DNA from: Pacificibacter marinus
GTDB taxonomy: Bacteria; Pseudomonadota; Alphaproteobacteria; Rhodobacterales; Rhodobacteraceae
Reading direction: 5' to 3'
Assembly: GCF_018860505.1 (NCBI RefSeq)
Contig: NZ_JAHKPU010000042.1
Location: forward strand, 42,376 to 95,879
Length of the DNA stretch: 53,504 nt
A program made the translations under genes and the position numbers. Under the pieces are notes generated by a model. The model was not told where the DNA came from, did not search any database, and saw only the letters and a program-made list of their open reading frames with translations. Every line of letters begins with the position of its first letter. The first letter of the stretch is position 1. This document shows positions 28,178 to 42,507 of this stretch, one piece after another.

Positions 28178-28255
28178 ATGAGCGCCAATAAGGCCCAAAA
28201 ACTTGCGTATTATCTGCTGGTTGCATTGACCTTTTACGCCACTTTGGGCGCATAG
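28178..28255 (+). CDS. Putative 25-residue membrane microprotein upstream of xpaC
   Basis: A short frame beginning MSANKAQKLAYYLLVALTFY and ending at TAG 28253-28255, 11 bases before the XpaC start. It has a polar N-terminus and one hydrophobic segment, the profile of a single-span microprotein. GGAG lies 10 bases upstream of ATG 28178. The frame is open further back to ATG 28118 (45 residues), but that extension is Arg/Lys-rich with no ribosome site. Its position as the first gene of the XpaC-TelA array makes a functional role possible. No homologue is known to me, and translation is an inference. Confidence 0.4.
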   Translation: MSANKAQKLAYYLLVALTFYATLGA

Positions 28256-28266
28256 GGCATCTGATC

Positions 28267-29154
28267 ATGGCGCAAAAATACGGCTCAAAATACTCACCTG
28301 ACAGTAACAATGACGCGAACACATCGATGGACGCCCCAAAAGCACGTCCTTTTGATGGCAAAGAACCATCCCGTGTGGGCGCGCGCTCAAACATCTTGTT
28401 TTATGCTGCCCTGCCCTTGGCGTGGAAAGCTTTTGGCGCTGAACCCATTGTCATGGCGCAATACATTGTCGCTCTGGGATTGTTGTTGGGGGCCGCTTGG
28501 CTGACCCGCGAAGGCCTGAAAGCGCAAGAAGCCTATGAAGCGCGCAAAGTCGCTCGCCGCCCTGCGATTCCACGCAAAATTTTCGGGTCTGCTTTAACAG
28601 GCCTTGGACTTAGCCTTGTTGGTATCGCGGGTTGGGGCCCACTTGAGGCTGCCATTTTCGCGGTTCTCGGCACAGCTTTACACAGTTTTGCCTTTGGCAT
28701 TGATCCTTTGAAACACAAAGGCATAGAAGGCATCGACACCTTTCAACAAGATCGCGTGGCCAAAGCTGTCACCGAGGCAGAACGCCATTTGGCCTCTATG
28801 CGTGAATCCCTAGAGCGCGCGGGCGACCGCGAGACGCAAACCCGCCTAGATCAATTCGCCAAAACCGCCCGCGCCATGTTTCGTACTGTCGAAGAAGACC
28901 CGCGCGATTTGACCGCAGCGCGCAAATATTTGAGCGTCTATTTGCAAGGTGCGCGTGACGCGACGACAAAATTCGCCGACATCTGGGGCCGCAGCCGTAA
29001 CATGGACGCCCGCACATCCTACCTTGCGCTTTTAGACGACCTTGAAAGCAATTTCACAGCACGCAACAAAGCGTTACTTTTAGACAATAAGGTCGATCTT
29101 GACATCGAGATCGACGTGCTTCGCGACCGGTTGGCCCGCGAAGGTATCAAGTAA
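28267..29154 (+). CDS. XpaC-family protein (5-bromo-4-chloroindolyl phosphate hydrolysis family)
   Basis: A 295-residue protein. The first 40 residues are polar. Two pairs of hydrophobic segments follow (about 42-57 and 61-80; 105-121 and 124-144), then a 150-residue charged helical C-terminal domain (FQQDRVAKAVTEAERHLASM, DLTAARKYLSVYLQGARDAT). This is the XpaC domain, found next to TelA in many genomes; despite its name no phosphatase motif is present. It is probably an inner-membrane partner of TelA. AGGG lies about 11 bases before the ATG. It is the first large gene of a five- to six-gene array on the plus strand. Confidence 0.8.
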   Translation: MAQKYGSKYSPDSNNDANTSMDAPKARPFDGKEPSRVGARSNILFYAALPLAWKAFGAEPIVMAQYIVALGLLLGAAWLTREGLKAQEAYEARKVARRPAIPRKIFGSALTGLGLSLVGIAGWGPLEAAIFAVLGTALHSFAFGIDPLKHKGIEGIDTFQQDRVAKAVTEAERHLASMRESLERAGDRETQTRLDQFAKTARAMFRTVEEDPRDLTAARKYLSVYLQGARDATTKFADIWGRSRNMDARTSYLALLDDLESNFTARNKALLLDNKVDLDIEIDVLRDRLAREGIK

Positions 29155-29181
29155 ATCAAATCGTTATCTCTGGGGGACTTC

Positions 29182-30372
29182 ATGTCAGATACCACTCGCC
29201 AAAAAGCCGAAGCCACGTTGAAAGACGTCGAAGCAGTCACCGCCGTTGTTCTGCCTGAGCCCGCGGGCGATCTGGTCGTATTTGACGCAGCAGAACCTGC
29301 ACAGGCTGACGCGATCCGCAGCGCTATGACTGAAATCGATATGAGCGATACAAATTCCATCGTGCGTTTCGGCTCTGGTGCGCAAGCTGAATTGCAAGAG
29401 ATTTCCCAAGCCATGCTCGCAGATGTGCGTAACAAAGACGTCGGGCCAGCGGGCGACAGCCTACGATCCATCGTAACCACCATTCGCGGCTTTTCAATCT
29501 CTGAACTCGATGTGCGCCGAGATCGGTCTTGGTGGGAAAAACTTCTGGGGCGCGCTGCCCCTATGGCGAAATTCGTTGCCCGCTTTGAGACTGTCCAAGG
29601 CCAGATTGATGACATCACAGACAATCTTTTATCGCATGAGCACACGCTTTTGAAAGACATTAAATCCTTGGATCTTTTGTACGATCGCACGCTGACCTTC
29701 TACGACGAATTGGGCATTTACATCGCCGCTGGCGAAGAAAAGCTCAAAGAGCTTGATGGCGTGACCATTCCCGCGAAAGAAGCAGAGGTGGCAGCTGCGG
29801 CAGAGAACGATCAAGTCATGGTCGCGCAAGAGCTGCGCGATCTACGTGCCGCGCGCGATGATTTGGAACGCCGTGTGCATGACCTAAAACTGACGCGCCA
29901 AGTCACCATGCAGTCCTTGCCATCCATCCGTTTGGTGCAAGAAAACGACAAATCCTTGGTCACAAAAATCAATTCGACCTTGGTCAACACAGTCCCGTTG
30001 TGGGAAACCCAATTGGCCCAAGCCGTGACCATTCAACGCTCTTCAGAGGCGGCACATGCCGTGCGCGAAGCCAATGATCTGACCAACGAATTGCTGACAT
30101 CCAACGCCAAGAACCTGCGCCAAGCCAACAAAGTTGTGCGCGAAGAAATGGAACGTGGCGTGTTTGACATTGAGGCCGTGAAAACCGCCAACGCTGAATT
30201 GATCGCGACTATCCAAGAAAGCCTGCAGATCGCCGACGATGGCAAAACCAAACGCGCAGCAGCAGAAGCAGACCTGAAGCAAATGGAAGCAGAACTGCGT
30301 GATACATTGGCTTCTGCTAAAGCCAAACGCACAGGCACCGGCGACAATGCTGGCACAGCTGTTCCGAGCTAA
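29182..30372 (+). CDS. telA: TelA-family toxic anion resistance protein
   Basis: A 396-residue soluble helical protein of the TelA/KlaA family. The N-terminal 90 residues are variable. Then comes the family core with FSISELDVRRDRSWWEKLLG, LSHEHTLLKDIKSLDLLYDR, TFYDELGIYIAAGEEKLKEL and VTMQSLPSIRLVQENDKSLV, followed by long coiled-coil helices. TelA proteins are linked to tellurite and other toxic anion resistance and to envelope stress, but no biochemical activity is settled. GGGGGA lies 5 bases before the ATG and 27 bases separate it from xpaC. Its 3' end overlaps the DUF2927 gene by 26 bases, a sign of coupled translation. Confidence 0.88.
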   Translation: MSDTTRQKAEATLKDVEAVTAVVLPEPAGDLVVFDAAEPAQADAIRSAMTEIDMSDTNSIVRFGSGAQAELQEISQAMLADVRNKDVGPAGDSLRSIVTTIRGFSISELDVRRDRSWWEKLLGRAAPMAKFVARFETVQGQIDDITDNLLSHEHTLLKDIKSLDLLYDRTLTFYDELGIYIAAGEEKLKELDGVTIPAKEAEVAAAAENDQVMVAQELRDLRAARDDLERRVHDLKLTRQVTMQSLPSIRLVQENDKSLVTKINSTLVNTVPLWETQLAQAVTIQRSSEAAHAVREANDLTNELLTSNAKNLRQANKVVREEMERGVFDIEAVKTANAELIATIQESLQIADDGKTKRAAAEADLKQMEAELRDTLASAKAKRTGTGDNAGTAVPS

Positions 30373-31345
30373 GGTGACACAAGGCGGCACATATAAAACT
30401 CAACGCGCTGCGGGGTTTGTCCTCGCAGCCGCGATGACGCTGTCCGGCTGCGTCCAATCCACAACTGTGTCGCCGATCCCTCAATCACGCCCTACCACTG
30501 TACCCACAGCAGTAGAGGCCGACACGACGCCTCAAGGGCCCTCAGCGCAAAGTAACGCCATGCGTGATTATTACGCAAAAGTTCAAAATAACCTGCTGCT
30601 CAATGATTTGCTGCGCACAGATGGCGGCGGCAGTGATACGCCGTTCACAACCCACCAGCTGGCCAATAATTTCGACGCCATCGCGCTGAACGACGAATAC
30701 ACCAGTGTCGGCGGCACTTATGTGGCCCGCACCACGCCGTCATCACTGCATAAATGGGCTGGTCCTGTACGCATCGGTTTGGAATTTGGCGCCAGTATTC
30801 CCGATGCACAACGCGCCACAGACCGCGCAACAGTTGCCGCTTTGACAGGGCGACTTGCACGGGCAACAAACCATTCGATTTCGATGTCCGCACGCCCCAA
30901 CTTTCATGTTTTGGTGTTGAACGAAGACGAGCGCCAAGTGATCGGCCCGCGCCTTGAACAGCTTATTCCTGGCATCGGCCAAGCTGCCATCAATTCCATC
31001 GAAAACATGCCGCGATCCAACTATTGTTTGGTGGTGGCGTCTGACCCTTCAGACAATGGCGTTTATCAAACGGCCGTGGCGATCATTCGCGGCGAACACC
31101 CTGAGTTGATGCGAAAGTCATGTTTTCATGAAGAAATTGCGCAGGGGCTTGGCCTTGCCAATGACACGCCGCGCGCCCGTCCGTCAATTTTCAACGACGA
31201 CGAAGAATTCGCGCTGCTGACGGGGCATGATGAATTGCTGCTGCGCATTTTGTATGATCCGCGCCTTTACCCCGGTATGCAGCCCGAAATCGCCCGTCCT
31301 ATTTCTGCGCAAATCGCCAACGAGCTGATGCGCGACGCCACTTAA
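30347..31345 (+). CDS. DUF2927 lipoprotein, putative degenerate zincin-like protein
   Basis: A 332-residue protein anchored as a lipoprotein. The signal peptide ends in TLSGC (modified Cys35 if ATG 30347 is the start). The mature part begins with a Pro/Thr-rich linker to about residue 70 and continues as the DUF2927 domain. Near the C-terminus (residues 259-270) CFHEEIAQGLGL, followed by the acidic SIFNDDEEFALLTGHDELLL, looks like a zincin helix whose second His is replaced by Gln. The ATG lies inside the end of telA, and an in-frame upstream ATG exists. The function is unknown; it is probably periplasmic, facing the envelope side of this array. Confidence 0.75.
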   Translation: MLAQLFRAKVTQGGTYKTQRAAGFVLAAAMTLSGCVQSTTVSPIPQSRPTTVPTAVEADTTPQGPSAQSNAMRDYYAKVQNNLLLNDLLRTDGGGSDTPFTTHQLANNFDAIALNDEYTSVGGTYVARTTPSSLHKWAGPVRIGLEFGASIPDAQRATDRATVAALTGRLARATNHSISMSARPNFHVLVLNEDERQVIGPRLEQLIPGIGQAAINSIENMPRSNYCLVVASDPSDNGVYQTAVAIIRGEHPELMRKSCFHEEIAQGLGLANDTPRARPSIFNDDEEFALLTGHDELLLRILYDPRLYPGMQPEIARPISAQIANELMRDAT

Positions 31346-31363
31346 CCGCCACAGGAGCCTCCC

Positions 31364-32467
31364 ATGGGAATTTTCGATTTTCTATCTGGTGAATTTATTG
31401 ATGTCATCCACTGGACCGATGACACCCGCGATACAATGGTGTGGCGTTTTGAGCGTGAAGCGCACGAAATTAAATACGGCGCGAAGCTGACTGTACGCGA
31501 AGGTCAAGCAGCTGTTTTCGTGCATGAAGGTCAATTGGCGGACGTCTTCACACCGGGTCTTTACATGCTTGAGACCAACAATATGCCGATTTTGACGACC
31601 TTGAACCACTGGGATCACGGTTTCAAATCACCGTTCAAATCTGAAATTTATTACGTCAACACCACACGGTTCTCAGACCTCAAATGGGGCACAAAGAATC
31701 CGATCATGTGTCGCGACCCAGAGTTTGGCCCAGTCCGCATTCGCGCCTACGGCACCTATACGGTCAAGGTCTCAGACCCTGCGCTGTTTTTGACGGAAAT
31801 CGTTGGCACCGACGGCGAATTCACCATGGACGAAATCTCGTTCCAAATCCGCAATATCATCGTGCAGGCCTTTTCACGCATCGTCGCCTCAAGCGGCATT
31901 CCTGTCTTGGATATGGCCGCGAACACTGACGGTCTTGGCAAATTGGTTGCGACAGAAATTTCCAAAGTCGTCGCCGAATACGGCCTTGTTATTCCTGAAT
32001 ATTACATCGAGAACATCAGCTTGCCTGAAGCTGTTGAAGCAGCCCTTGATAAACGCACCTCGATGGGCATTGTCGGCAATCTGGACAACTACATGAAATT
32101 CAACGCAGCCGAAGGCATGGGCGCGGAGAACTCTGCCATGGCTGCCTCGATGGGCGCAGGTATCGGCGCGGGTCTTGGCATGGGCATGGCGCAACAGGCA
32201 GCAGGCCCATGGGGCGCACGCCCAACAGCCGCCGTCCAAGCCCCTCCGCCGCCGCCTGTTGAACATGTTTGGCACATCGCTGTGAATGGCGAAACCAAAG
32301 GCCCGTTTTCAAAAGCCGAAATGGGGCAGATGGCCGCCAAAGGCACCCTTACCCGTGCCTCTTATGTTTGGACCCAAGGCCAAGATGGCTGGTTGGAAGC
32401 CGATGATGTGGTCGAGCTGTCACAACTGTTTTCCGTCGCCCCGCCCCCACCACCGCCCGGCGCCTAA
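31364..32467 (+). CDS. SPFH-domain protein fused to a GYF_2 domain
   Basis: A 367-residue protein of the YdjI/virion-core-like SPFH family. The SPFH part spans about residues 20-240 (EIKYGAKLTVREGQAAVFVH, then VFTPGLYMLETNNMP, and ISLPEAVEAALDKR). A glycine- and alanine-rich hinge follows (250-280), then a Pro5 tract (294-298), a GYF_2 domain (302-348, with GPFSKAEMGQMAAKG and WTQGQDGW), and a C-terminal Pro6 tract (360-365). SPFH proteins build membrane-associated scaffolds; GYF domains bind proline-rich peptides, so self-association is possible. There is no transmembrane segment. AGGAG precedes the ATG. It is 18 bases from the DUF2927 gene. Confidence 0.85.
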   Translation: MGIFDFLSGEFIDVIHWTDDTRDTMVWRFEREAHEIKYGAKLTVREGQAAVFVHEGQLADVFTPGLYMLETNNMPILTTLNHWDHGFKSPFKSEIYYVNTTRFSDLKWGTKNPIMCRDPEFGPVRIRAYGTYTVKVSDPALFLTEIVGTDGEFTMDEISFQIRNIIVQAFSRIVASSGIPVLDMAANTDGLGKLVATEISKVVAEYGLVIPEYYIENISLPEAVEAALDKRTSMGIVGNLDNYMKFNAAEGMGAENSAMAASMGAGIGAGLGMGMAQQAAGPWGARPTAAVQAPPPPPVEHVWHIAVNGETKGPFSKAEMGQMAAKGTLTRASYVWTQGQDGWLEADDVVELSQLFSVAPPPPPPGA

Positions 32468-32491
32468 AGCGGCGATTGGACAGACTTGACC

Positions 32492-32881
32492 ATGCAGCCC
32501 AAAAACAAGCCGCCCAAAGTGACCCGCAAAGCCGAGGGCCATGCCCGCAAAGATGCTCGCGCCGAAGACATCGCGCTGGCGTTGATGGGCGTTGGCCCTT
32601 TGCCCGTTGACATGATCGCAGATGATGCCACTTGGGAATGCGGACAAGACGCCCCAGCCGCCGGTCGCACGGCCATTGCAAAAGTATTTGACGCCCTGAC
32701 CGCCCCCGACACCATCACTGTGGATCAAGTTGTAACGCACGGCAAAGCCGCGTCGGTATCGGGGCGACTGACACGCGGCGCGCAAGAGCGCATCTTTTGC
32801 CACGTGATTCGGCATACCAGTGAGGCAGCAACGCAAATCGCGCAGATCGTCAGCTTTGAACATGCCGGAGGGTCGTCATGA
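32492..32881 (+). CDS. Small NTF2-like (SnoaL-type) protein, function unknown
   Basis: A 129-residue protein. A basic 25-residue lead is followed by an alpha-plus-beta pattern of the NTF2-like fold: EDIALALMGV helix, DDATWEC, AGRTAIAKVFDALTA helix, then strands ITVDQVVTHGKAASVSGRL, ERIFCHVIRH and ATQIAQIVSFEH. This is a fold-level inference, without a family match. A TTG two codons upstream is an alternative start. Its stop overlaps the next gene's start (ATGA), so translation is coupled. It may bind a small ligand or act as an adaptor for the zinc-ribbon protein. Confidence 0.6.
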   Translation: MQPKNKPPKVTRKAEGHARKDARAEDIALALMGVGPLPVDMIADDATWECGQDAPAAGRTAIAKVFDALTAPDTITVDQVVTHGKAASVSGRLTRGAQERIFCHVIRHTSEAATQIAQIVSFEHAGGSS

Positions 32882-33990
32882 CCGGTAACGACGGATTACC
32901 AGCACAAGACGTTTTACAAGATCACCGCTTTCCCTGCACCACCTGCGGGGCAGACATGCGGTTTTCACCCGACACAGGCGCACTGGCCTGTGATCATTGC
33001 GGGGCAACTGAGACTTTGGACATCGGCGGCGCAACAGGCCCCTATGAGTTGGATTACAGCCGCGCAATCAAAGACCTATTGCCGCAACAAGATATGGAAG
33101 ACACCCGTGTCTCTGAATGTCCAAATTGTGGCGCACAGGTCGAATTTAGCGCCGAGATCCATGCCACAGAATGTCCGTTTTGTGCAACGCCAGTGGTTAC
33201 AGACACGGGGCTACATCGCCAAATCAAACCGCGTGGGCTGCTACCCTTTGCGCTATCAGAAGCGACAGCACGCGACGCGATGAATGACTGGCTAGGCGGA
33301 TTGTGGTTTGCTCCAAACGGGTTGCAAAACTACGCCCGCAAAGGACGCAAGCTGTCTGGTATTTACGTCCCCTATTGGACCTTTGATGCCGATACAAAGT
33401 CGCAATATTCTGGTATGCGCGGGGATGATTATTATGTCACCAAAACCGTTATGCGCGATGGCAAACGTAAACAAGTGCGCGAGCGGCGTACCAAATGGCG
33501 CAACAAATCAGGGCGTGTCGCACGGTTTTTTGATGATGTTTTGGTGCTGGCCTCAACGTCTTTACCCAAGAAATACACTGAAGGGCTAGAGCCGTGGGAT
33601 TTGCAAGCGATGGAACCCTATGTTCCTGACTACATTGCTGGGTTTCGCGCCGAAAGTTACTCTGTTGATTTGGAAGACGGCTATCGGTCTGCGCGCAGCT
33701 ATATGGATCGTGTGATTTTGCGTGACGTTAAATTTGACATCGGCGGTGATCGTCAACAAGTGGCCAGTGTAAACACACAAGTCTCAAACGTGACATTCAA
33801 ACATGTGCTGCTGCCGGTTTGGATGGCCGCCTATAAATACCGCGGGAAAACCTATCGCTTTGTCGTCAATGGCCGTACTGGTCGGGTACAAGGCGAACGC
33901 CCTTGGTCCGCTTGGAAAATCGCTTTTGCCGTCATTTTAGGCGCAATCGTTGCAGGCGCCATCGGGTTTATCGCATCACAATACCAATGA
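32878..33990 (+). CDS. Double zinc-ribbon protein with C-terminal membrane anchor
   Basis: A 370-residue protein. Two rubredoxin-like zinc knuckles lie near the N-terminus (CTTCGADM...CDHCG at about residues 20-42; CPNCGAQV...CPFC about 85-105). A middle domain follows with SGIYVPYWTFDADTKSQYSG and VLLPVWMAAYKYRGKTYRFV strands, and a single membrane span near residues 345-366. Proteins like this are often mis-annotated as primosomal protein N' or helicase-like; no helicase motif is present. The arrangement places zinc ribbons in the cytoplasm, tethered to the membrane. It overlaps the preceding gene by 4 bases and closes the array. Confidence 0.8.
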   Translation: MTGNDGLPAQDVLQDHRFPCTTCGADMRFSPDTGALACDHCGATETLDIGGATGPYELDYSRAIKDLLPQQDMEDTRVSECPNCGAQVEFSAEIHATECPFCATPVVTDTGLHRQIKPRGLLPFALSEATARDAMNDWLGGLWFAPNGLQNYARKGRKLSGIYVPYWTFDADTKSQYSGMRGDDYYVTKTVMRDGKRKQVRERRTKWRNKSGRVARFFDDVLVLASTSLPKKYTEGLEPWDLQAMEPYVPDYIAGFRAESYSVDLEDGYRSARSYMDRVILRDVKFDIGGDRQQVASVNTQVSNVTFKHVLLPVWMAAYKYRGKTYRFVVNGRTGRVQGERPWSAWKIAFAVILGAIVAGAIGFIASQYQ

Positions 33991-41522: not shown

Positions 41523-42507
41523 CTATGTATTGGGAATCGAGAGTTCTTGTGATGATACCTCTGTGGCGCTGGTCGCAAAGGATGGCTCTGTCAAAGCGAT
41601 CAAAACCGTGTCGCAATACGAGATTCATCAAGCCCATGGCGGGGTCTACCCTGAACTGGCATCTCGTGCGCATTTGGAAGCTATTTTGCCAACGATTCAA
41701 TCTGTTATGGATGAGGGGCACGTCACACCAAAAGACCTTAAAGCCATCGGCGTCACCCGTGGCCCCGGTTTAATCGGGTCGCTTTTAATCGGTCTGGCAA
41801 CAGCAGAAGCGCTGTCGATGGGCTGGGGGGTGCCGGTTTACGGCGTCAATCACTTGCGCGGCCATATGCGGTCTGTCGATCTGGAAGAGGTTCGCACCAC
41901 CTACCCCGCTGTTGTGTTGCTTGTCTCTGGCGGGCACACTTTGGTGGCCGAACTTAAAGACCCGTGGAGTTACCGTTTGCTCGGCACAACCCGCGACGAT
42001 TCTGTTGGGGAAAGCTATGATAAAGTGGCGAGGATGCTGGGGCTTGGCATGCCAGGAGGGCCTGCCATAGATGCGGCGGCCAAACGCGGCACGCCTGTAT
42101 TGCGCCTGCCCCGCCCAATGAAAAACGAAGGCTATGAGTTTTCATTCTCAGGCCTGAAATCATCCGTTGCGCGCCACATTGAAAAACATCCAGAAGTCAG
42201 CGTTGACGACATGTCCGCGTCTTTTGTGGCCGCCTGTATGGATGTGCTCATCGCCAAGGCCGAGCGAGCTGTCATTGAGTGTGCGCCAAAATCGCTGATC
42301 ATTGTTGGCGGGGTCGCCGCGTCGCCGCAAATACGTGACGGGATGGCAAAACTGGCACAGGTCCACGACCTATCCTTGTGCTTGCCTCCGATCAAATGGG
42401 CGACGGACAATGGGGCAATGATTGGCTTGGCCACATGGGATTACATAGAAAAAGGCATCAAGCCTGACTTGGTCCCCAAACCGAATCTAAGCCTTGAGAC
42501 GCCTTAG
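41515..42507 (+). CDS. tsaD: tRNA t6A transferase TsaD
   Basis: A 330-residue metalloprotein that transfers the threonylcarbamoyl group to A37 of ANN-decoding tRNAs. The metal-binding HxxxH is in VNHLRGHMRS, ATP-site segments are SSCDDTSVALV near the N-terminus and LLVSGGHTLVAE, and EFSFSGLKSSV and VVGGVAAS-like IIVGGVAASPQIRDG occur later. GGAG lies 7 bases before ATG 41515; the longer frame back to 41458 is rejected. It converges on the Anbu gene, the two stop codons overlapping by three bases. It is the last gene of the t6A operon. Confidence 0.96.
   Translation: MTDYVLGIESSCDDTSVALVAKDGSVKAIKTVSQYEIHQAHGGVYPELASRAHLEAILPTIQSVMDEGHVTPKDLKAIGVTRGPGLIGSLLIGLATAEALSMGWGVPVYGVNHLRGHMRSVDLEEVRTTYPAVVLLVSGGHTLVAELKDPWSYRLLGTTRDDSVGESYDKVARMLGLGMPGGPAIDAAAKRGTPVLRLPRPMKNEGYEFSFSGLKSSVARHIEKHPEVSVDDMSASFVAACMDVLIAKAERAVIECAPKSLIIVGGVAASPQIRDGMAKLAQVHDLSLCLPPIKWATDNGAMIGLATWDYIEKGIKPDLVPKPNLSLETP

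Follow-up and report, generated by a model that had tools for sequence, protein, structure and literature searches.

The stretch of DNA analysed here (the window, 53,504 nucleotides in length) comes from Pacificibacter marinus, of the order Rhodobacterales in the Alphaproteobacteria (assembly GCF_018860505.1, contig NZ_JAHKPU010000042.1, forward-strand positions 42,376 to 95,879), and at 28178 to 33990 it carries a compact row of genes for an XpaC-like protein, TelA, an SPFH-domain protein and a zinc-ribbon membrane protein, together with a microprotein, a DUF2927 lipoprotein and a so-called NTF2-like protein. The operon is real and conserved, and its novelty lies in the joining of two known stress modules. 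The genes of the row are as follows.

28178..28255, + strand: predicted transmembrane (TM) microprotein of 25 amino acids, MSANKAQKLAYYLLVALTFYATLGA, the first gene of the set, recognised by a profile match and hydrophobic at 9-25
28267..29154, + strand: XpaC-like protein, 295 amino acids (PF10112, E 1.6e-24; hydropathy)
29182..30372, + strand: TelA, 396 amino acids (PF05816, E 2.1e-106; hydropathy)
30374..31345, + strand: putative DUF2927 lipoprotein, starting at GTG 30374 or at ATG 30347 (PF11150, E 1e-58; lipobox)
31364..32467, + strand: SPFH (Band_7_1) protein with a GYF_2 domain (303-352), YdjI-like (PF13421, E 9.6e-99; PF14237, E 3.5e-20)
32492..32881, + strand: so-called NTF2-like protein, 129 amino acids, with no convincing Pfam family
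32878..33990, + strand: zinc-ribbon (ZnR) membrane protein, 370 amino acids, YdjG-like (cysteine sets; C-terminal TM segment)

All six large same-strand open reading frames (ORFs) described in the initial annotation are found on the + strand, from 28267 to 33990, and intergenic gaps of 27 nucleotides or less are borne out throughout, the XpaC/TelA gap being 27 nucleotides. Two start-stop overlaps had also been described; the one at the NTF2-like/ZnR junction stands (ATGA, 32878-32881), and that between telA and DUF2927 depends on initiation at ATG 30347, as use of GTG 30374 leaves a 1-nucleotide gap after telA instead. There is a single promoter-like site where 3.9 are expected, and there are seven terminator-like sites where 8.6 are expected, numbers that speak neither way on internal transcription units. 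Pfam names four of the six large ORFs (XpaC/Halogen_Hydrol, TelA, DUF2927, and Band_7_1 plus GYF_2); for the ZnR protein it gives weak zinc-ribbon matches alone, all below the cut-off, and for the NTF2-like label it offers no support.

Hydropathy supports the earlier proposal that the proteins lie at both faces of the inner membrane. XpaC is hydrophobic at about 58-80 and again at about 105-145, and the C-terminal part that follows is soluble; TelA is predicted from hydropathy and structure modelling to be nearly all helical, with no TM-like segment; the DUF2927 protein carries a lipobox, LSGC, read from the sequence with its cysteine at Cys26 in the numbering of the GTG form; and the SPFH/GYF protein has no TM-like segment by hydropathy, its proline tail being conserved in an alignment of 19 sequences. 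The ZnR protein has two four-cysteine ribbons of CxxC...CxxC type (C20/23/38/41 and C81/84/99/102), then a beta-rich middle domain and a C-terminal TM segment at 343-369. All eight cysteines are invariant across 37 aligned sequences, and in a wider set of five the Tsukamurella copy lacks C38.

We have examined samples of 121 genomes of the order, 142 of the class and 249 of the phylum (G and L numbers below are our handles for genomes and loci). Within the order TelA is present in 119 genomes, a count that includes the diverged copy of G085 (E 8e-12); SPFH is above the family cut-off in 117, or 118 with one weak match in G011 that falls below the threshold; the ZnR gene is present in 117; and DUF2927 is present in 120, mostly in at least two copies each. 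SPFH and ZnR occur both together in 117 of the 121 genomes and are both missing from the other four, and never is one found alone. TelA and SPFH lie no more than 6 kb apart in 115 of the 117 genomes carrying both; for unlinked genes in 4 Mb such closeness is expected in about 0.3% of cases per genome, so the clustering is far beyond chance. The SPFH-ZnR distance is at most 6 kb in 103 of 117 genomes, and among the other 14 the two genes are on different contigs in eight, several of them at contig ends. Of the 119 genomes with TelA, at least 113 have a DUF2927 match no more than 3 kb from it. It had been foreseen that the DUF2927, SPFH and ZnR genes might turn out to lie far from telA and xpaC in most relatives; this is not what we find, because matches to all three cluster with TelA in the order.

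The linkage table behind these figures has one row per genome and gene. Excluded from it are weak second SPFH matches in G008, G064, G015, G114 and G083 and the sub-threshold match of G011; weak second TelA matches in G050, G039 and G085; and, for ZnR, a second strong copy in G118 and weaker ones in G013, G074, G077 and G102. The first ribbon of ZnR forms a separate match in seven genomes, and the XpaC counts given below rest on loci and not on a genome-by-genome search. TelA and SPFH of G110 (L045) lie about 13.6 kb apart, and two diverged DUF2927 copies are found close to SPFH there.

Judged from gene content, the core of the operon is the row XpaC-TelA-SPFH-ZnR, headed in this order by the one-helix microprotein. 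The initial annotation took SPFH and ZnR as core partners of XpaC-TelA, and linkage, the rows found in other families and joint loss all support it. In G106 TelA, SPFH and ZnR are absent from the genome and XpaC from the locus, leaving rluB-DUF2927-pfkB, and G099, of the same genus, has all four core genes between the same flanks; L034 (G106) and L036 (G099) thus form a natural with/without comparison pair inside one genus. G011 likewise keeps DUF2927 and has no TelA or ZnR, with a weak SPFH match. In G048 TelA-DUF2927 is on one contig and SPFH-ZnR on another.

The claim that DUF2927 is a core part is not sustained: it is missing from the row in four other families and in G023, where XpaC-TelA-SPFH-ZnR follow one another with no intervening DUF2927, and it is retained in G106 and G011 where core genes have been lost. 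On this distribution DUF2927 is an accessory gene for a putative lipoprotein. We also considered a metalloprotease activity for it and rejected this, as its HEExxQ stretch lacks the second histidine of HExxH; the first histidine of the stretch is conserved in at least 90% of 15 sequences and not in a wider set of 36. A sequence search for solved relatives of DUF2927 gave none at E <= 1.

The NTF2-like gene had been counted as part of the set and is found in the window's genus only: 18 of the 19 genomes of that genus have it, 12 genomes from other families in the class all lack it, and it lies between SPFH and ZnR in all eight loci of the genus that were inspected, the window included. There was no match in other genera among the fetched loci, which alone were checked, and in a blastp search at E 1e-8 the window copy is the sole match among these. 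In some relatives the SPFH-ZnR gap holds other genes, being occupied in 12 loci by a gene for a small membrane protein (for example L047, L094, L106 and L110; the L110 copy, which was scanned, belongs to no Pfam family), and in five (for example L096, L106, L127 and L131) by what we take, from an unscanned sequence, to be a cytochrome-b561-like protein.

The possible microprotein of the initial annotation is upheld. A profile built from 24 other loci, with the window excluded, was used in a six-frame search of 1.81 Mb in 125 sequences, and it matches the window copy with 26.9 bits (E 7.6e-6) directly 5' of XpaC. There are 83 matches at E <= 10, of which 80 are within 350 nucleotides upstream of the XpaC body; the match in L032 is also just 5' of the XpaC ORF but outside this body-based limit, and the remaining two are weak (10.0 and 9.5 bits). 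The microprotein is found at E < 0.01 in 59 of 98 loci having XpaC and enough upstream DNA, 24 of them profile seeds and 35, including the window, non-seeds; in the 73 loci with DUF2927 or rluB, among which all 24 seeds fall, it is found in 58 at E < 0.01 and in 69 at E <= 10. Members in the order are 25-30 amino acids long with one predicted helix, and the copies scanned belong to no Pfam family. Their codon-position differences (0.46, 0.34 and 0.61, with no control frame alongside) are in keeping with a coding gene. Outside the order, about 13 of 21 loci, as judged by eye, have in this position an ORF of 29-75 amino acids with a single hydrophobic stretch and a motif resembling LRKxIGxLLLxxT; the one-helix proteins in question (LRKxIG...T.G..SC-like) are those of L077, L079, L080, L081, L083, L085, L093, L099, L101, L103, L125, L140 and L154. 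Perhaps these belong to the same family as the microprotein.

The association of TelA with SPFH extends beyond the order. In the class sample TelA is present in each of the seven genomes where SPFH matches strongly, compared with 4 of the 135 others (p 1.7e-9), and without the window's own family the figures are 5 of 5 and 4 of 135 (p 3e-7); PF13421 matches at E <= 0.001 occur in 46 of the 142 genomes, but the 39 genomes beyond the seven strong ones match over short parts only (E 7e-7 at best) and were not counted, nor were two genomes with weak TelA matches (G182 and G212). XpaC, TelA, SPFH and ZnR are consecutive in four genomes from four other families, with neither DUF2927 nor the NTF2-like gene. 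Among loci chosen by similarity to TelA (the best 80 of 504 relatives), XpaC adjoins TelA in 75, or 74 by a strict count that the split TelA frame of L152 fails; SPFH is present in 66, ZnR in 58 and DUF2927 in 59. Eight of the 80 have the row XpaC-TelA-SPFH-ZnR free of DUF2927; L078 and L154 are alphaproteobacterial by title, and L077, L079, L083, L099, L114 and L125 belong to the Gammaproteobacteria by title or by the lineage of the named taxon. SPFH is missing from 14 of the 80, some of which end soon after TelA. Near the SPFH genes of L065, L073 and L058 are genes that we take, recalling the names from sequence and without scanning, to encode spermidine-synthase-like and DUF350-like membrane proteins, a setting that resembles the polyamine-linked Band-7 operons in a survey of the phage shock protein (PSP) system (PMC11237479).

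We also fetched 14 SPFH loci, from the phylum sample and G463, and by tblastn the ZnR gene is adjacent in eight of them. Because XpaC-TelA and SPFH-ZnR each occur without the other in exceptional or outside genomes, the four-gene row is, as gene content indicates, a joining of two older units. A pair of the second kind is present on the Vibrio coralliilyticus plasmid NZ_CP048695.1 (L164, 1-7154), where SPFH and a ZnR homologue are near genes for TIR-domain and TRAFs-binding-domain proteins, surroundings that resemble a conflict island.

To call the system uncharacterised, as was done at first, is too strong, because a module related to the SPFH/ZnR pair has been studied. In Bacillus subtilis the SPFH protein YdjI brings PspA to the membrane, with YdjG and YdjH required, according to the portion of PMC8581546 consulted, and YdjG is described in a passage of PMC11237479 as combining a pair of zinc ribbons with a middle domain and a TM segment. 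The window similarly has a Band_7_1 SPFH gene beside a gene for a two-zinc-ribbon, single-TM protein, the likeness of the latter to YdjG resting on layout and on an Enterococcus set rather than on direct comparison with YdjG. In Enterococcus gallinarum an SPFH gene is followed by a homologue of the window's ZnR (26.6% identity by tblastn; hhalign E 1.6e-37) and then by a gene for a TPM-domain protein, so that the predicted composition of the set is that of YdjI-YdjG-YdjH. The PF13421 control search matches in B. subtilis as well.

The window's set differs from PspA-YdjGHI in several respects. PspA/IM30 (PF04012) gives no match in the window's genome, nor in 81 of the 121 genomes of the order, and TelA and XpaC are added to the set; where PspA does occur it is on the contig of TelA in 18 of 40 genomes, and at the closest 21.6 kb away. 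The TPM domain of YdjH (PF04536) is absent from the six operon proteins, the rest of the genome not having been searched. The window's SPFH protein has GYF_2 where the Bacillus band-7 protein (written YdjL in the passage of PMC11237479 and taken here as YdjI) is described as having a C-terminal zinc ribbon. The Band-7 operons of that survey, as the sections consulted present them, resemble the window's set in combining a Band-7 protein, a coiled-coil effector and membrane partners, but a term search of its main text finds no TelA, XpaC or GYF. A structure model of the ZnR protein is confident (predicted local distance difference test score, pLDDT, 88.4; predicted template-modelling score, pTM, 0.81), with long strands and a C-terminal helix, and none of its 417 PDB matches is at E <= 0.001; a sequence profile of the middle domain gives weak zinc-ribbon-type matches, the best at E 0.02. 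In a sequence search the GYF region of the SPFH protein has a match to 7z3c, a protein of gliding motility (E 4e-4). We find no link between TelA or XpaC and SPFH in literature titles, and DUF2927 in no paper; subscription journals are poorly covered by this search and a prior mention is possible.

The names of TelA and XpaC come from tellurite and from a colour reaction. A sequence search gives neither protein a convincing solved relative. The TelA model (mean pLDDT 69.5, pTM 0.54) is predicted to have long helices at 125-205 and 208-322, and in the PDB it comes closest to subunits of helical pore formers (AhlC, E 2.7e-3, and ClyA), BAR domains and other coiled coils. A PspA/ESCRT-III fold, which we considered for TelA, finds no support among the best 50 of 965 Foldseek matches, and the likeness of TelA to PspA is therefore left as a functional analogy.

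Envelope stress, proposed earlier as the likely theme, fits the literature on XpaC-TelA and YdjGHI. The CesSR envelope-stress response of Lactococcus includes XpaC-TelA, which rise 10.3-fold and 3.4-fold with the CesSR regulon on membrane-protein overproduction, in the account that we draw on from PMC3139573, and in Listeria the LiaSR regulon contains XpaC-TelA together with Psp genes, as stated in the relevant part of PMC12791056. The same part cites Collins et al. 2010 for a mutant of the TelA-like lmo1967 with a 4-fold rise in nisin and a 2-fold rise in tellurite susceptibility, and this 2026 paper calls the mechanism of TelA and XpaC not known. The Firmicutes pairs of XpaC and TelA (YaaN), such as lmo1966-lmo1967 and llmg_1115-llmg_1116, share with the window the pairing of an XpaC-like gene with a TelA gene, which in the window are a PF10112 gene directly 5' of a PF05816 gene on the same strand, as well as a soluble helical TelA and a membrane XpaC; they differ in that the window's pair is linked to SPFH/GYF, ZnR, the microprotein and, in this order, DUF2927.

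We conclude that this conserved operon, joining TelA-XpaC with a Bacillus-like SPFH/ZnR scaffold, probably helps the inner membrane to withstand damage. As to how, we give an even chance to an inner-membrane stress or repair scaffold working by analogy with the Bacillus PspA-YdjGHI system but without PspA. TelA and XpaC would then take the places of PspA and YdjH, an assignment made because of the likeness to YdjI-YdjG and the lack of a PspA match in the genome. The ZnR protein, and XpaC with the microprotein, would tether an SPFH oligomer to the membrane on its cytoplasmic side, GYF might lock the SPFH subunits by gripping their proline tails, and the assembly would gather TelA at damaged sites, where TelA may stiffen or seal the membrane, which is the job of PspA elsewhere. 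DUF2927 would be a periplasmic lipoprotein added in this order, as a sensor or as a helper on the cell-wall side, and the NTF2-like protein an extra component of the window's genus. It is also possible, and we offer this tentatively, that the operon encodes a machine for membrane repair, independent of PspA, in Alphaproteobacteria and some Gammaproteobacteria. An SPFH/GYF ring with ZnR, XpaC and the microprotein as its anchor would then bring TelA, a polymerising effector equivalent to PspA, to places where the inner membrane is damaged, the microprotein tuning XpaC or starting assembly.

A number of observations weigh against such a scaffold. The linkage has exceptions, as G081 carries XpaC-TelA-DUF2927 with no SPFH/ZnR, ZnR is far from SPFH in six genomes of one genus, TelA and SPFH are apart in G132 and G463, L093, L098 and L113 show about 8 kb past TelA with no SPFH, and, of the 17 genomes in the phylum sample that carry SPFH and lie outside the class, 14 have no TelA at E 1e-20. 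PspA is found alongside TelA, SPFH and ZnR in 40 of the 121 genomes of the order, and the operon is therefore not simply a PspA substitute. The confidence of the TelA model is moderate; none of its 965 PDB matches in Foldseek is at E <= 0.001, and there is no PspA or ESCRT-III chain among the best 50 of these. In Lactococcus the xpaC-telA double deletion was one of 11 mutants made, and those named as notably impaired in the part of PMC3139573 that we consulted are ftsH, oxaA2, llmg_2163 and rmaB, not xpaC-telA. The gripping of the proline tail by GYF is a guess, and the role of the operon as a whole is inferred from sequence.

The same genes could instead serve housekeeping, in membrane-protein quality control or envelope organisation, with SPFH/ZnR forming a microdomain or a cage for which HflKC is the comparison, and with TelA and XpaC organising envelope growth, stress merely raising the demand. 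We regard this as unlikely, even though it would suit a presence that is near-universal in the order, and SPFH-ZnR pairs with no adjacent TelA in 8 of 14 loci outside it and also in records from Vibrio, Tsukamurella and Enterococcus. Parts of the literature lean the same way, in that loss of Bacillus YdjG/YdjH mislocalises cell-wall synthesis under stress (in the portion of PMC8581546 consulted) and Lactococcus XpaC-TelA respond to membrane-protein overproduction (PMC3139573, in the same passages as above); but the relatives of XpaC-TelA are described in the consulted parts of PMC3139573 and PMC12791056 as stress-induced, not constant. No protease or cell-wall synthase is prominent among the inserted genes that were scanned, the flanks outside the order being unannotated. 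A Ter-type system for toxic-anion or metal stress, with TerC as the original partner, seems to us improbable. In 19 of 100 XpaC sequences a TerC-like gene does precede XpaC, at 69-261 bp (PF03741, E 2e-26, for the one copy scanned), TelA itself is a point of likeness to the Ter/toxic-anion network, and a jumbo-phage review, in the section available to us, counts TelA among the components of Ter systems, placing it beneath the membrane (PMC7824862). In the same direction points the frequency of TelA relatives with about 29% identity on enterobacterial conjugative plasmids, 549 of 595 records being typed as conjugative. However, PF03741 has no match in the window's genome, and the Listeria mutant is affected more by nisin than by tellurite, as reported in the passage of PMC12791056 already cited. 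TerB, TerD and TerF are likewise absent from the Pfam scan of the operon proteins, no genome search having been aimed at them.

The initial annotation had suggested phage attack as one possible trigger. We consider an anti-phage defence system very improbable, despite the TIR-domain gene near the related SPFH-ZnR pair on the Vibrio plasmid: the six proteins give a single match against PADLOC-DB 2.0.0, with an E of 0.092, the operon is near-universal in the order with recurrent flanking genes, and of 111 candidate stretches in viral contigs none was confirmed as a TelA relative. The recurrence of those flanks could also be read to mean that unrelated genes have come together by chance in a housekeeping region (tadA-rluB ... 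pfkB), which is the least probable explanation of all, as other families and gammaproteobacterial loci have the gene set without such flanks, core genes are lost jointly in G106 and G011, and co-occurrence at the level of the class is as strong as noted above.

As separate observations on the TelA and XpaC families, the loci with a TerC-like gene directly 5' of XpaC are L047, L051, L092, L105, L108, L111, L112, L115, L116, L118, L123, L127, L132, L133, L138, L143, L145, L151 and L155, and the plasmids with TelA relatives of about 29% identity come from Acinetobacter, Enterobacter and many other hosts, so that in other settings TelA as a family is mobile.

Returning to an inner-membrane scaffold that combines TelA-XpaC with SPFH/ZnR, we note that the operon carries a conserved TM microprotein belonging to no Pfam family, and a zinc-ribbon membrane protein for which there is no Pfam model above the cut-off and a confident structure model with no PDB match at E <= 0.001. 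The stable link to the SPFH/ZnR module gives TelA and XpaC a concrete role that can be tested, and the operon might explain how the membrane is protected in those 81 of the 121 sampled genomes of the order that have no PspA match.

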